Source: Egicoccus sp. AB-alg2
Lineage (GTDB): Bacteria > Actinomycetota > Nitriliruptoria > Nitriliruptorales > Nitriliruptoraceae
Length of the DNA stretch: 64,000 nt
Assembly (NCBI RefSeq): GCF_041821065.1
Contig: NZ_JBGUAX010000002.1
Location: 248,001 to 312,000, forward strand
Direction: 5' to 3'
Part shown: one piece after another, positions 23,908 to 30,383 of the stretch
Layout: each line of letters starts with the position of its first letter
Position numbering within the stretch: position 1 is the stretch's first letter
The notes under the pieces: generated by a model
What the model was told of the DNA's origin: nothing
The model's database searches: none
The model's input: the letters and a program-made list of their open reading frames with translations, nothing else
Program-made: the position numbers and the translations under genes

Positions 23908-23937
23908 TTGCCGCCGCCGTCGACCACCCGCTACCGT
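23908..23937 (+). promoter_or_regulatory. valS promoter
   Basis: TTGCCG (23908-23913), an 18-base spacer and TACCGT (23932-23937). The ATG of the leader peptide begins eight bases after the -10 box, which puts the likely transcription start at or next to that ATG, as in leaderless genes. Confidence 0.55.
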
Positions 23938-23944
23938 GGCTGGC

Positions 23945-24001
23945 ATGCAGCGTCACCAGCACGTCGTCGTACCGGGTCTTCGCGAAGGCCTGGTTCCCTG
24001 A
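23945..24001 (+). CDS. valine-rich leader peptide of valS (candidate attenuator)
   Basis: An 18-codon frame, ATG to TGA, encodes MQRHQHVVVPGLREGLVP. Codons 7-9 are three consecutive valine codons (GTC GTC GTA), and a fourth valine is at codon 17. It sits between the valS promoter and the valS gene and appears leaderless, starting eight bases after the -10 box. Directly after the Val run, GGGTCTT/AAGGCCT (23974-23991) can form a stem. A strong hairpin follows at 24034-24057. This is the layout of ribosome-mediated attenuation sensing charged tRNA-Val. It is too short to be judged by homology. Confidence 0.6.
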   Translation: MQRHQHVVVPGLREGLVP

Positions 24002-24033
24002 TGCGCTGACACGCACACACGCGTTTCGCGTTC

Positions 24034-24057
24034 GGCCCCGGGCACCCGCCCGGGGCC
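24034..24057 (+). terminator. attenuator-like hairpin in the valS leader
   Basis: GGCCCCGGG and CCCGGGGCC form a perfect 9-base-pair stem with a 6-base loop, followed by GTCGTCGTTTCG. It lies between the leader peptide and valS, 23 bases before the ATG, so it can act only as an intrinsic or translational attenuator. A smaller stem (ACGCG-TTT-CGCGT, 24019-24031) precedes it. Confidence 0.55.
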
Positions 24058-24079
24058 GTCGTCGTTTCGAGGAGCATCC

Positions 24080-26665
24080 ATGGACGGCTCGTCCGCCATC
24101 ACGACGCCCACCGCGGCGCCACCGGCGCACCCCACGCTGGACGGTCTGGAGGAACGCTGGGTCCGCCGCTGGGACCAGCAGGGCATCTACGCGTTCGACC
24201 GCACGCGCCCGCGGGAAGCGGTGTTCTCCATCGACTCCCCGCCGCCGACGGTCAGTGGCGTGCTGCACGTCGGCCACTGCTTCTCCTACACCCACACCGA
24301 CCTGGTGGCCCGCTACCGCCGGATGCGCGGCGACGAGGTCTTCTATCCCATGGGGTGGGACGACAACGGCCTGAACACCGAACGGCGGGTGCAACTGCTG
24401 CGCGGCATCACCTGTGACCCGTCGCTGCCCTACGACCCCGATTTCGTCGCACCCGGTCCGACCGACGCGCCAGTCGCCTGCTCGCGCCGCAACTTCGTGG
24501 AGATCTGCGAGGAGGTCGCCGAGGAGCTCGAGGCGGACTACCGGCGGCTGTGGACGCGGCTGGGCCTGTCCGTCGACTGGGACCAGCACTACCGCACCAT
24601 GGGTCACCGTGCCCACCGCGTTTCGCAGTACGGGTTCGCCGAGCTGTACCGGGCCGGGCGCGCCTACCGGGCCGACGCGCCGACCCTGTGGGACGTGGAG
24701 TTCGGCACCGCGGTCGCCCAGGCCGAGGTCGAGGAGCGCGAGATCCCGGGTGCCCTCCATCGGCTGTGGTTCGACGCCGGTGACGGCACGGGCATCGAGG
24801 TGGACTCGACCCGACCGGAGCTGCTGGCCGCCTGCGTGGCCGTGGTCGTGCATCCGGACGACGACCGGTTCGCCGGCCGGCTGGGCACGACCGTGCGCAC
24901 GCCCGGTTACCGGGTCCCCGTGCCCGTCCTGGCGCACCCACTGGCCGATCCTGCCATGGGCACGGGGGCGGTGATGGTCTGCACCTTCGGTGACGCGACG
25001 GACGTCGTCTGGTGGCGCGAACTGGATCTGCCGACCCGGACGATCCTGGGCGCGGACGGCACCCTCCTCGACGTCGAGTGGGGCAGCGAACGCTGGCCGA
25101 GCGAGGACCCCGACCGGGCACACGAGCTGCACGCACGGCTCGTCGGCGCCACACCGGAGCAGGCCCGCGAGGTGCTCGCGACCGCGCTGGCTGCGACGCG
25201 TGAGCTGCGCGGCGAACCGCGCCCCACCACGCACCCCGTTCGGTTCTGGGAGAACGGGCGTCGGCCGCTGGAGATCCTGGTGACCCGCCAGTGGTTCGTC
25301 CGCACGCTCGACGAGCGCGACGTGTGGCGTCGCCGCGGTCGCGAGCTGCGGTGGCACCCGGCCGCGATGCGCCAGCGCTACGACAACTGGGTCGACGGCC
25401 TCAACGCGGACTGGAACGTCTCGCGGCAGCGCTACTTCGGGGTGCCCTTCCCGATCTGGTACCCGATCGACGCCGACGGCACGGTCCGCCACGACGAGCC
25501 GATCCTGGCCGCCGACGACCGGTTGCCGGTCGACCCGGCCACGGACCTGCCCGCGGGCTACCGCGCCGACCAGCGCGGCGCGCCGGGTGGCTTCGTCGCC
25601 GAATCCGACGTGATGGACACGTGGGCGACCTCGTCCCTGTCGCCCCAGATCGCCGGCGGCTGGCCCGACGATCCCGACCTGTTCGCGCGGGTGTTCCCGT
25701 TCGACCTGCGCCCCCAGGCACACGAGATCATCCGCACGTGGCTGTTCACCACGGTGGTCCGCGCTCACGCCCACCACGGCGTGCTGCCGTGGCGGCACGC
25801 CGCCATCTCCGGCTTCGTGGTCGATCCCGACCGCAAGAAGCTGTCCAAGTCGAAGGCCAACGCGCCGGACGAGCCGATGGCGCTGCTGGCCCGCTACGGC
25901 GCGGACGCCGTGCGCTACTGGGCCGCCGGCGCTCGGCTGGGCAACGACACCAGTCTGGACCACAACCGGCTGAAGATGGGTCGGCGGCTGGCCACCAAGC
26001 TGCTGAACGTCTCCCGCTTCGTGCACAGCGCCGTCACGCGCGCGGGCGGCCTCGTCGAGGCCCCCACCGTCGACGAGTCGCTCGACCGCGCCTGGCTGGC
26101 GCAGCTGGCCGCCGACGTCGACGACGCCACCCGGCACTTGGACGCACTCGAGCATGCCGCCGCGCTGCGCACGATCGAGGACGTGTTCTGGACTTTCTGC
26201 GACGACGTCGTGGAGCTGCTCAAGGGCCGGGCCTACGGCGACCTGGGCCCGGAGCGCGCCACCTCGGCGCACGCGACGCTGACGCGGTCGCTGTCCGTGC
26301 TCCAGCGGCTGCTGGCGCCCTACCTGCCGTTCGCGGCCGAGGAAGCCTGGTCGTGGTCCCGACCCGGGTCGGTCCACCGCGCGGCCTGGCCGACGGTCGA
26401 CGAGCTCCGGGTGGCCGGTGCGGCCGGGGGCGCGGCCGGCATCGACGCCGTCCGGCACGTGCTCGCGGACGTCCGCCGCCGCAAGTCGGACGCCTCGGTG
26501 CCGCTGCGGACACCGGTCACGACCCTCGCGATCGTCGCACCCGACGCCCAGCTGGACGTGCTGCGGGAGGCGGCCGACGACCTCGCGGCAGCCGCGCGGG
26601 CGTCCGACGTCGTCGTGAGCGCTGGCGAGCGGCTGGCCGTCGAGGTGGAGCTGGCACGGACGTGA
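24080..26665 (+). CDS. valS: valyl-tRNA synthetase
   Basis: An 861-residue class Ia aminoacyl-tRNA synthetase. The HIGH-type motif is HVGH at residues 63-66, and the KMSKS-type motif is KLSKS at about 587-591. An editing (CP1) domain lies between, with DSTRPELLAACVAVVVHP. The blocks SPPPTVSGVLHVGHC and MGWDDNGLNTERRVQ mark the short ValS type found in archaea and some bacteria, rather than the E. coli type. The C-terminus ends after the anticodon-binding domain with no long coiled-coil arm. It charges tRNA-Val and hydrolyses Thr-tRNA-Val. GAGGAG precedes the ATG. A valine leader peptide and hairpin upstream suggest control by tRNA-Val charging. Confidence 0.93.
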   Translation: MDGSSAITTPTAAPPAHPTLDGLEERWVRRWDQQGIYAFDRTRPREAVFSIDSPPPTVSGVLHVGHCFSYTHTDLVARYRRMRGDEVFYPMGWDDNGLNTERRVQLLRGITCDPSLPYDPDFVAPGPTDAPVACSRRNFVEICEEVAEELEADYRRLWTRLGLSVDWDQHYRTMGHRAHRVSQYGFAELYRAGRAYRADAPTLWDVEFGTAVAQAEVEEREIPGALHRLWFDAGDGTGIEVDSTRPELLAACVAVVVHPDDDRFAGRLGTTVRTPGYRVPVPVLAHPLADPAMGTGAVMVCTFGDATDVVWWRELDLPTRTILGADGTLLDVEWGSERWPSEDPDRAHELHARLVGATPEQAREVLATALAATRELRGEPRPTTHPVRFWENGRRPLEILVTRQWFVRTLDERDVWRRRGRELRWHPAAMRQRYDNWVDGLNADWNVSRQRYFGVPFPIWYPIDADGTVRHDEPILAADDRLPVDPATDLPAGYRADQRGAPGGFVAESDVMDTWATSSLSPQIAGGWPDDPDLFARVFPFDLRPQAHEIIRTWLFTTVVRAHAHHGVLPWRHAAISGFVVDPDRKKLSKSKANAPDEPMALLARYGADAVRYWAAGARLGNDTSLDHNRLKMGRRLATKLLNVSRFVHSAVTRAGGLVEAPTVDESLDRAWLAQLAADVDDATRHLDALEHAAALRTIEDVFWTFCDDVVELLKGRAYGDLGPERATSAHATLTRSLSVLQRLLAPYLPFAAEEAWSWSRPGSVHRAAWPTVDELRVAGAAGGAAGIDAVRHVLADVRRRKSDASVPLRTPVTTLAIVAPDAQLDVLREAADDLAAAARASDVVVSAGERLAVEVELART

Positions 26666-27081: not shown

Positions 27082-28191
27082 CTACACCCGGTTCCCGAGG
27101 GCGCGCAGCAAAAGGTGCTCGCACAGTTCGGCGTGCGCGAGGCCGGCGGCTCGCGCCGAGATCGCGAAGCCGCTGGTGGGGGTGATCCCGGGCAGCGGGT
27201 TGACCTCGAGGAACTGGAAGCGACCGTCGGGACCCAGGCGGAAGTCGGACCGTGACGAGGTGTCACCGATCCCGAGGCATCGGTGGACCTCACCGGCCAG
27301 CCGCTGGATCTCGGCCGTCTGCTGCGGCGTCAGGTCGGCCGGCGCCTGCTTGCGGGACGCCCCAGGCGCGTACTTGGCCTCGTAGTCGTACAGACCGCGG
27401 TCGGTCACGAGTTCGACGGCGGCGAGGACCCGATCGCCCAGCGTCCCGACCGTGAGGTCCCGGCCTGGGACGTACTCCTCGACGAGCGCGTCCTCGCCGG
27501 CGGCGCCCGCTCGCGCCACGGCCGCGGGGAGCTCGCCGGCGTCCGTGACGTACGAGAGCCCGATGGTCGAACCACCGCGCACGGGCTTGACGATCCACGG
27601 CGGCGACAGCGCGAGCGCGGCCAGGTCGGACGACTCCCGGCCGCGGCGGACCCGGTGCCAGGCCGGTGTGCTGATGCCGTGGTCGACCAGCACGCGCTTG
27701 GTGGCCTCCTTGTCGAAGGTCAGCGCGCACACCTCGGCGCTCGGTCCGGTGTAGCGGATCCCGTGCGCGTCCAGTAGGCGCTGCGTCGCGCCCGCCTCGC
27801 CCTCGTCGCCGTAGACGGTCAGGAAGACCACGTCGGCGGCGGCCAGGAGCGGGAGCAGTTCCGGCGCGAGCACCCCGCCGTCCTGCCTGGCACGCAGGAC
27901 CGCCAGCATCTCCGGATCGGGCGGTGCGCCGTGTCCGTCGCCGACCGGCGGGGTGGCGAGATCGGGGCCATCGGGGTCGCTGTGGAAGGCCCCGTCGACA
28001 CGCCCGTCCCACCCGTCGGGCACCGCGGCGGAGTCGACTCCGGCCACCCGGTGCCCACGCGCTCGCAGGGCGCGTACGACGGCGACGCCACATGCCAGCG
28101 AGACGTGCCGCTCGCTGTTGGCACCACCCATCAGCACCGCCACGCGCAGCCGGCTCGCACTCGAAGCCGGGGCCACCCCGGGCGTGCTCAT
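27082..28191 (-). CDS. D-alanine--D-alanine ligase-like ATP-grasp enzyme
   Basis: A 369-residue ATP-grasp ligase. The N-terminus has the Ddl-type loop LMGGANSERHVSLACG. The central part has WIVKPVRGGSTIGLSYV (ATP-binding lysine and glycine loop) and LVEEYVPGRDLTVG. The C-terminus has FQFLEVNPLPGITPTSGF with the Mg2+-binding Glu/Asn. Housekeeping Ddl usually reads ExNTxPGMT; here NPLPGIT. The ATG overlaps the stop of the PLP-fold gene by four bases, so the two proteins are made together. This, plus the motif changes, suggests a dedicated D-Ala- or amino-acid-ligating role rather than the cell-wall Ddl. A housekeeping role cannot be excluded. Confidence 0.82.
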   Translation of the reverse strand: MSTPGVAPASSASRLRVAVLMGGANSERHVSLACGVAVVRALRARGHRVAGVDSAAVPDGWDGRVDGAFHSDPDGPDLATPPVGDGHGAPPDPEMLAVLRARQDGGVLAPELLPLLAAADVVFLTVYGDEGEAGATQRLLDAHGIRYTGPSAEVCALTFDKEATKRVLVDHGISTPAWHRVRRGRESSDLAALALSPPWIVKPVRGGSTIGLSYVTDAGELPAAVARAGAAGEDALVEEYVPGRDLTVGTLGDRVLAAVELVTDRGLYDYEAKYAPGASRKQAPADLTPQQTAEIQRLAGEVHRCLGIGDTSSRSDFRLGPDGRFQFLEVNPLPGITPTSGFAISARAAGLAHAELCEHLLLRALGNRV

Positions 28192-30383
28192 CGGCGCTCC
28201 GTCCACTGGTCGACTCCGTGTTCGAGAAGAAGGCGGAGTTTGTCGAGCCCGGCCCGCAGGTCTGCCACCTCGGCCCGCAGGCGGCTCGCCAGGTCGGGGC
28301 CGCGCAACCGGTCGCGCACCACGCGACACACGGTCGGGGCGCCGATCGCCAACCGCAGGGCCGCGCCGCCGTGCCCTCGCGGGCCGAGCGCGACGGGTTG
28401 GCCGAACTCGAAGCGTCGGCCCAGGGTGGCACGCGCGGCGGCTGCGACGCCTGGCGGGGCCTGTGCGGCGAGGTCCGTCCGCAGCAGCCGGTCGACGGTC
28501 CGCAGCGCCGTGAGCTCCAGTGGCTCCCCGTCGGCCAAGACGCGGAAGGTGAAGATGCTCGGTGCCTCCTCCAACGGCACCGGCCGCGCCGCTCCCGCGC
28601 CGGCGCCGGACGGCACGCTGGCCGCGACCGCGGGCGGGGTGTCGAGCGGCTCGGCAACAGGGCTGCGGTCGAGGGCGGCGCACGCGGCGTCGGTCAGGTG
28701 TGCCAGGACGCGCCGACGCAGGTCGACCGGGAGTCGAAGGTAGACGTCGGCCTGCGCCAGCGCGGCCGACCAGCGCAGCAGCAGCCCGGGGTTGGGTGCC
28801 GGCGACGCGACCCGACGAAGCGCACGCAGCGCCGGCGGGACGGCGCCGCGGTCGAGATAGACACCGACGCCCTCCGGCCAGGGCCGGGCCCGCACCCGGT
28901 CGATCAGCGACGGCGGGATCAGCAGCGCGCCGGAGAACGGCGGACCGGCCAGGAACTTCGAGCCCGTCACGACGACCTGGCGACCGGCCGCGAGATGCGT
29001 GCCGACCGTGGCCGCACCGACCCGCAGCTGCGCCGCGTCGATGACGACGTCGAGCCGGTCGCCGTGCGCGGCTTCCCAGCTCCGGAGCGCCGCTGGCCTG
29101 GGCAGGCGGACGCCGGTCTTGCTGCCTTCGACCACGTGGAGGACCGCCTGCCGACCGTCGGCGACGATGGCCGCCAGATGCGTGGCGATCTCCGCCTCGA
29201 TCGCGTCGGCGTCGCGCAGCCGCCCGTCCTCGTCACGCACCTCGACCGCCACGCTGCGGACGTCGGCCGGCATGCCCGGCAGCAGCTTGCCGGTGCACAG
29301 CCGGCCGCCCTGCGGGGTCCGATCGGTGAAGGCGCGGCCGGTCGCGGCCAGTTCCGTGCCGCTGCCCAGCTCGAGCGGTGCGACGAGGACGGTCGTCGTC
29401 GCCCGGCCGGCGCTGGCCGCGACGGTCAACGCCAGCGTCTCTGCGTCGGTCCCGGACGGCGTCGGGACCACCGTCGTCCCTCGGGGTCGGCCGCGGCCGG
29501 CCAGCGTTCGTGCCAGGGCGTCGCGGAGGGCCGTCCACTCCCGGTCGAGCGTGGTCTCGAGACCATGGCACAGCGCCCGCGCGACCAATCGCCGCCGACG
29601 AGCGTCGGCGGCGGCGAAACCGGCCATGGACGACGACGATGCCGTGCACGAGGAGAACGAGACCACCTCCGGCCGTGGCAGCGGCGAGACCCCGTAGCGG
29701 TTCTCGACGCTCGTCCAGTCGACGACCACCCGGTCGTCCCCGCCGGAGCCCAACAGCACGGCCGTGGGCAGCGCCACGGGCAGCACGTCCGAGGCACGAC
29801 GTGCCGCCGCGTCGAGGGTGGCGGCGTCCAGGCCGGCGATCCGAGAGGCGCCGTCCTCCCGGTCCCGGAGCGCGTGCAGGACGTCGGCCGCGACCGCGCG
29901 GGCGTCGTCGGGACCGATCCCGGGCACGGCATCCGCGAGGGCGTGCAGTGACCGGCGGGCGGCGGCGGAGGTCGCCGGCAGCGGCGCGTCGGCGTGCCCC
30001 CGGACGAGGTCGGTGTACACGACGGCCGCGGCGTGGGCGAGGATGCGACCGGCCAGTTCACAGACACCATCGGTGACCCCGGCCGAGGATTCGAGCCACG
30101 ACCGTTCGAGCGCCTCACGGACGACCAGCGCGGCCAGCGCCGGTTCGCGCGCGAGCTCAGGCCGCAGGAGCACGTCGTCACCGTCGACGAGACACGGCTC
30201 GCTCTGGCCGGCGTGCGCCCGGAGGACGCGACCGCGAAGCAGGGGGCCGAGGTCTGGGCAGGCCCCCAGCGCCTCGAACGGCCGGCTCACCGGCGCACCA
30301 CGGCCGCCGCCGGTGCCGATCCCCTCGGCCACCTCCCACCAGAACGCGCGCGCATCCACCCCCCGCTGGACCGACGTCGCCAC
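28188..30383 (-). CDS. aminotransferase class V-like PLP protein with extra N-terminal region
   Basis: A 731-residue protein with a class V-like PLP fold from about residue 240 to 560. VVIDAAQLRVG carries the Asp that contacts the PLP ring nitrogen, and VVTGSKFLAGPPFSGALL carries the likely PLP lysine. GTTVVPTPSGTDAETLAL resembles the cofactor phosphate-binding loop. Residues 1 to about 230, and about 150 at the C-terminus, match nothing I recognise. The GTG start lies just after a TAGCGT box, so it may be near-leaderless; other GTG codons downstream are possible. Its stop overlaps the ATG of the Ddl-like ligase. It may feed an amino acid or amine to that ligase, but this is inference. Confidence 0.65.
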   Translation of the reverse strand: MATSVQRGVDARAFWWEVAEGIGTGGGRGAPVSRPFEALGACPDLGPLLRGRVLRAHAGQSEPCLVDGDDVLLRPELAREPALAALVVREALERSWLESSAGVTDGVCELAGRILAHAAAVVYTDLVRGHADAPLPATSAAARRSLHALADAVPGIGPDDARAVAADVLHALRDREDGASRIAGLDAATLDAAARRASDVLPVALPTAVLLGSGGDDRVVVDWTSVENRYGVSPLPRPEVVSFSSCTASSSSMAGFAAADARRRRLVARALCHGLETTLDREWTALRDALARTLAGRGRPRGTTVVPTPSGTDAETLALTVAASAGRATTTVLVAPLELGSGTELAATGRAFTDRTPQGGRLCTGKLLPGMPADVRSVAVEVRDEDGRLRDADAIEAEIATHLAAIVADGRQAVLHVVEGSKTGVRLPRPAALRSWEAAHGDRLDVVIDAAQLRVGAATVGTHLAAGRQVVVTGSKFLAGPPFSGALLIPPSLIDRVRARPWPEGVGVYLDRGAVPPALRALRRVASPAPNPGLLLRWSAALAQADVYLRLPVDLRRRVLAHLTDAACAALDRSPVAEPLDTPPAVAASVPSGAGAGAARPVPLEEAPSIFTFRVLADGEPLELTALRTVDRLLRTDLAAQAPPGVAAAARATLGRRFEFGQPVALGPRGHGGAALRLAIGAPTVCRVVRDRLRGPDLASRLRAEVADLRAGLDKLRLLLEHGVDQWTERR

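Follow-up and report, generated by a model that had tools for sequence, protein, structure and literature searches.

A candidate valine leader lies upstream of an auxiliary valS gene

The window analysed here, a 64,000-nucleotide stretch of the Egicoccus sp. AB-alg2 genome (contig NZ_JBGUAX010000002.1, positions 248,001 to 312,000), contains a valine--tRNA ligase gene preceded by a leader of 135 bases, in which a run of valine codons, a predicted hairpin 1:2, a predicted antiterminator, a predicted terminator and a Shine-Dalgarno sequence follow one another in the 5' to 3' direction (Table 1). A preliminary description of this DNA had reported an 18-codon frame with GTC GTC GTA in a row and a fourth valine codon, situated between a TAnnnT box and valS, and this was confirmed at base level, the fourth valine codon being GTT at 23993-23995. 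The TACCGT box and the ATG were also found as described, with 7 intervening bases. No sigma-70 site upstream of the leader was called by a consensus scanner.

Table 1. Features of the valS leader and gene (positions in the window)
Feature	Position	Strand	Details
Putative promoter	23908..23937	+	TTGCCG 23908-23913, 18-nt spacer, TACCGT 23932-23937; direct reading
Leader-peptide ORF, MQRHQHVVVPGLREGLVP	23945..24001	+	18 codons, ATG 23945, TGA 23999; probably leaderless
Valine triplet	23963..23971	+	GTC 23963, GTC 23966, GTA 23969; proposed stall site
Hairpin 1:2, 10 bp	23971..23994	+	23971-23980 / 23985-23994; folding
Antiterminator 2:3	23988..24043	+	GCCUGG 23988-23993 : CCGGGC 24038-24043; -25.9 kcal/mol; folding
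Predicted terminator 3:4, perfect 11-bp stem	24033..24058	+	24033-24043 / 24048-24058; -28 kcal/mol; folding
Shine-Dalgarno sequence of valS, GAGGAG	24069..24074	+	Outside the three attenuator stems; direct reading
alt_ValS, auxiliary valine--tRNA ligase, 861 aa	24080..26665	+	ATG 24080; NCBIfam NF000540

The product of the gene was assigned to the alt_ValS family (NCBIfam NF000540, 1188.9 bits against a curated cut-off of 900). The gene is valS, as described, behind a leader carrying codons for its own amino acid, but by this family assignment it is an auxiliary gene and not the housekeeping valS. The ordinary, resident ValRS of the source genome is encoded on another contig (G000:C5:393550-395685) without such a leader, and alt_ValS shares 33% identity with it. 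The flank of the ordinary valS locus (L002:614-681) matches the ASdes sRNA family in Rfam (50.9 bits).

Within the class, alt_ValS was found in 2 of 66 species at E <= 1e-110, these being the window species and one relative, G015. Proteins of 50-58% identity are spread across actinobacteria and acidobacteria, and no closer relative of the window protein, above 57% identity, was found among 396 species of the phylum. Close to alt_valS in the window, at 27085-28683 on the reverse strand, lies a gene for a D-Ala-D-Ala ligase-like ATP-grasp protein.

Plasmid copies of alt_valS occur in apparent metabolic gene clusters of Streptomyces and Variovorax; the plasmid-borne genes H1, H3 and H4 were considered by annotation only, and in H1 and H3 valS follows immediately on the gene before it. 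In Streptomyces sp. NBC_01724 and Variovorax sp. SRS16 (plasmid loci L153 and L154), alt_valS stands directly behind metabolic genes (radical SAM and arginine deiminase family; aminotransferase and amidohydrolase). Such placement might signal self-resistance to a ValRS inhibitor or a valine analogue.

The leader RNA is predicted to form mutually exclusive hairpins

Folding of the leader, which the preliminary description had proposed as a check, yielded three mutually exclusive stems in single-sequence predictions, and as modelled these 1:2, 2:3 and 3:4 hairpins are a textbook attenuator set. The first base of hairpin 1:2 is the last base of the third valine codon; the GGGTCTT/AAGGCCT pairing noted earlier after the valine codons is real and belongs to a longer hairpin, of 10 bp. 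A perfect stem is likewise present further downstream, although its length is 11 bp (24033-24058) and not 9 bp (24034-24057) as first given. It reads CGGCCCCGGGC-ACCC-GCCCGGGGCCG and is followed by the weak tail UCGUCGUUUCG; this tail is T-poor, and the candidate terminator drew no call from a terminator scanner.

In the predicted antiterminator, segment 2 (the 3' arm of hairpin 1:2) pairs with segment 3 (the 5' arm of the terminator) around a nested helix (23998-24014 / 24021-24035). The alternative stem proposed earlier, CGCGAA/TTCGCG, does exist as a complementarity, but in folding it was rejected as the antiterminator because it has no contact with the terminator arm and leaves the terminator free; GCCUGG/CCGGGC takes this part instead.

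RNA was folded downstream of ribosomes modelled at each valine codon and at the stop codon. For ribosome positions Val7, Val8 and Val9, with the 3' arm of the terminator still unmade, the best fold was the antiterminator (energy in Table 1). When the ribosome was placed at Val17 or on the stop codon, segment 2 was covered and the antiterminator impossible in the folding model, and the terminator alone remained. The terminator is thermodynamically the stronger of the two, so the choice between them would have to be kinetic; in known attenuators, too, the terminator is the thermodynamically stronger structure.

From this layout we infer a start site, translation of the leader, termination and regulation as follows. 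Transcription would begin at or next to the leader ATG, and the leader peptide would be translated without a Shine-Dalgarno sequence. With ample Val-tRNA, the ribosome would get to the TGA and cover segment 2 (about 23984-24012), upon which the terminator hairpin would form and transcription would stop. With Val-tRNA scarce, the ribosome would stall at the three valine codons with hairpin 1:2 opened, so that 23988-23993 could pair with segment 3 and RNA polymerase could continue into valS. If the leader were not translated, hairpin 1:2 would form and the terminator would win. We consider it likely that this leader works as a ribosome-mediated transcription attenuator of the classical type, through which the supply of Val-tRNA controls the auxiliary ValRS gene, the spare enzyme probably being made only when charged Val-tRNA is low.

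Comparison of the leader with shuffled and genomic sequence

This site was chosen by eye, which weakens all chance estimates made for it. The minimum free energy of the whole leader gave z = -4.3, with none of 200 shuffles as stable. None of 2000 shuffles of 23938-24079 gave an ATG-started mini-ORF with three valine codons in a row, the frequency of such frames rising to 0.25% once GTG starts were allowed. When segment 23981-24032 was shuffled and the terminator arm kept fixed, the antiterminator was matched with P = 0.08 by energy and P = 0.027 by energy and segment-2 pairing jointly; taken alone, it is supportive and modestly unusual, not decisive.

A mechanical scan for an ATG mini-ORF with a run of three codons for one amino acid, a hairpin of at least 9 bp, a Shine-Dalgarno sequence and a gene was run over 464 kb of the source genome (the window and a further 400 kb of stretches; 928 kb with both strands). 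It returned 3 matches for any amino acid and a single one for valine, located at valS, the match between amino acid and gene not being among the scan criteria. The tryptophan match is a frame ahead of a GGDEF/EAL gene, within coding-looking sequence, and does not precede a Trp gene.

Leaders and promoters of valS, ilvB and ileS in relatives

The sole close relative of the window alt_valS, in G015, is 79% identical and has a different gene neighbourhood. Its homology to the window protein spans residues 10-233 only (L007 / L206 1-1008), and since it ends near residue 233 the G015 gene looks truncated. The G015 contig begins inside the terminator hairpin (CCCGGGCTCTCGGTCCGGGG TTCTTCGTGTT CCGAGGAGG); a hairpin is retained at the same place before the valS Shine-Dalgarno sequence, with a T-richer tail, UUCUUCGUGUU. 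A search of the other G015 contigs for the missing upstream half of the leader found neither the junction sequence nor an adjacent metZ-like gene, and a DNA search with the leader over 66 species of the class returned short G+C-rich chance matches only. No convincing valine leader was seen upstream of 78 distant alt_valS genes, nor in a second set of 23 such genes which may overlap with the 78, and none was convincing before the ordinary valS genes of the class.

What many of the distant loci do have is a TAnnnT box 5-9 nt upstream of the valS start codon itself. It occurs, in a sharp peak, in 46 of the 78 (L036-L115), and in 20 of the 23 in the second set, where the start was chosen to fit. 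Judged from this spacing, the usual alt_valS mRNA appears to be leaderless, and the attenuator seems here to have been inserted between a leaderless-type promoter and its gene. The distance from the -10-like box to the leader ATG in the window falls within the start spacing of these distant genes, and the leader peptide is itself probably leaderless; across the source genome the leaderless signal is weak, with a weak enrichment at 6-8 nt.

The source genome also carries an upstream peptide before ilvB (L151, G000:C4, about 1273-1392), which starts with GTG, is Val/Leu-rich (VRETITRVGRLGVLFVVVVVLVT) and ends ...GVLFVVVVVLVT-stop. Two strong, terminator-like hairpins follow, the second of which has a short T-rich tail. 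Similar Val/Leu/Ile-rich ilvB leaders are present in the relatives G001, G004 and G005, which suggests that valine-sensing attenuation is probably established and in use in this lineage. Shortly upstream of ileS, a T-box-like TGGTACCGCG motif was found in both the source genome and G015 (L004:1422-1431; L116 about 378-388), the one in L116 giving no call at the Rfam gathering threshold. With attenuators at ilvB and valS and a T-box-like leader at ileS, a single genome would have three branched-chain-amino-acid RNA controls, all of them predicted.

Alternative explanations of the valS leader

The valine frame could be accidental. The leader would then be a structured 5' UTR of the ordinary sort, with a hairpin that ends or stabilises the transcript and no sensing of valine. 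Strong hairpins do arise easily in GC-rich DNA, GTCGTCGT words are common (the G015 genome has 123 GTCGTCGTNNCG sites) and the distant relatives lack the leader, yet shuffling never reached the valine run in an ATG frame, the single valine case of the scan is sited at valS, and both the stop position and the order of the segments are correct for an attenuator, so that we regard this explanation as unlikely. Distinctly less probable still is that the peptide is translated and acts by translational coupling, Rho-dependent termination or mRNA decay, without an intrinsic terminator. Such a route would suit the weak U tract after the 11-bp stem, and it has parallels in actinobacterial cysteine leaders, for which candidate Rho sites are reported (PMC1262725), and in the leaderless Cys-rich mini-ORF attenuators of mycobacteria (Canestrari 2020, as described in PMC9031893). 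Three exclusive stems, however, suit an intrinsic switch, the valS Shine-Dalgarno sequence lies outside all of them, and a strong hairpin with a short T tail ends the ilvB leader of this genome as well.

Synthetase genes are often under T-box control, and the motif just upstream of ileS would give direct sensing of uncharged tRNA-Val by a T-box riboswitch a precedent within the source genome. Typical T-box leaders are longer than 135 bases, though; no TGGNACCGCG or TGGNACC-type motif was seen on reading the leader, and there is no Rfam match anywhere in the window, which rules out the described T-box families at the gathering threshold. We judge a T-box here to be extremely improbable. The attenuator layout with a probably leaderless valine leader peptide, which the preliminary description had put forward, is the explanation best supported by folding, shuffles and the genome scan.

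We tentatively propose, with confidence falling just short of even, that an acquired second ValRS is silenced by a leaderless Val-codon attenuator and induced only upon failure of the resident ValRS to charge its tRNA, be it through an inhibitor, a valine analogue or starvation. It would then be an inducible backup or resistance synthetase, under the first attenuator described on valS, and would suggest how a newly acquired, redundant synthetase stays off until needed.

Comparison with known attenuators

The preliminary description had treated it as exceptional for a synthetase gene to be attenuated by its own amino acid, but among actinobacteria there is precedent: a survey of leaders reports candidate attenuators before trpS2 and leuS in Streptomyces, and T-boxes before ileS (PMC1262725). 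No valS attenuator is reported in the passages of that survey consulted, and valS is absent from its text; none emerged from a literature search that covered part of the literature. An auxiliary TrpRS gene is under ribosome-mediated attenuation according to a title cited in PMC4787780 (Vecchione & Sello 2010). The Streptomyces trpS2 and leuS attenuators and that of the auxiliary TrpRS would, like the one proposed here, place an actinobacterial synthetase gene under ribosome-mediated attenuation by its own amino acid, and the TrpRS, too, is a second synthetase, whereas the window leader involves valine and alt_ValS in place of Trp or Leu and is probably leaderless.

The leader peptide of C. glutamicum ilvBNC is made without a ribosome binding site, to go by a title cited in PMC10272879 (Morbach 2000). 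This leader (ilvB-II motif, PMC10272879) and that of ilvB in the source genome share with the window a Val/Leu/Ile-rich upstream frame followed by a terminator, which in the window is a predicted one. The mycobacterial polycysteine mini-ORFs (Canestrari 2020, as described in PMC9031893) are short leaderless frames, as the window frame probably is, and carry the codons of the amino acid they sense in one block; they sense cysteine, whereas the window leader has valine codons and predicted hairpins of the classical exclusive kind. The ilvB leaders control biosynthesis and the window leader would control charging; in the source genome, the ilvB leader further differs from that of valS in its SD-like AGGAG and its longer run, FVVVVVLV. 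A housekeeping synthetase is encoded by pheST. Its attenuator in gamma-proteobacteria, mentioned in PMC1262725, sets a synthetase operon under a leader peptide with many codons for the operon's own amino acid, in this case another amino acid and another phylum. Each element of the window leader has precedent, and their combination with valS appears to be new. If correct, the attenuator reading would extend ribosome-mediated attenuation to valS, in parallel with the attenuated auxiliary TrpRS of Streptomyces.
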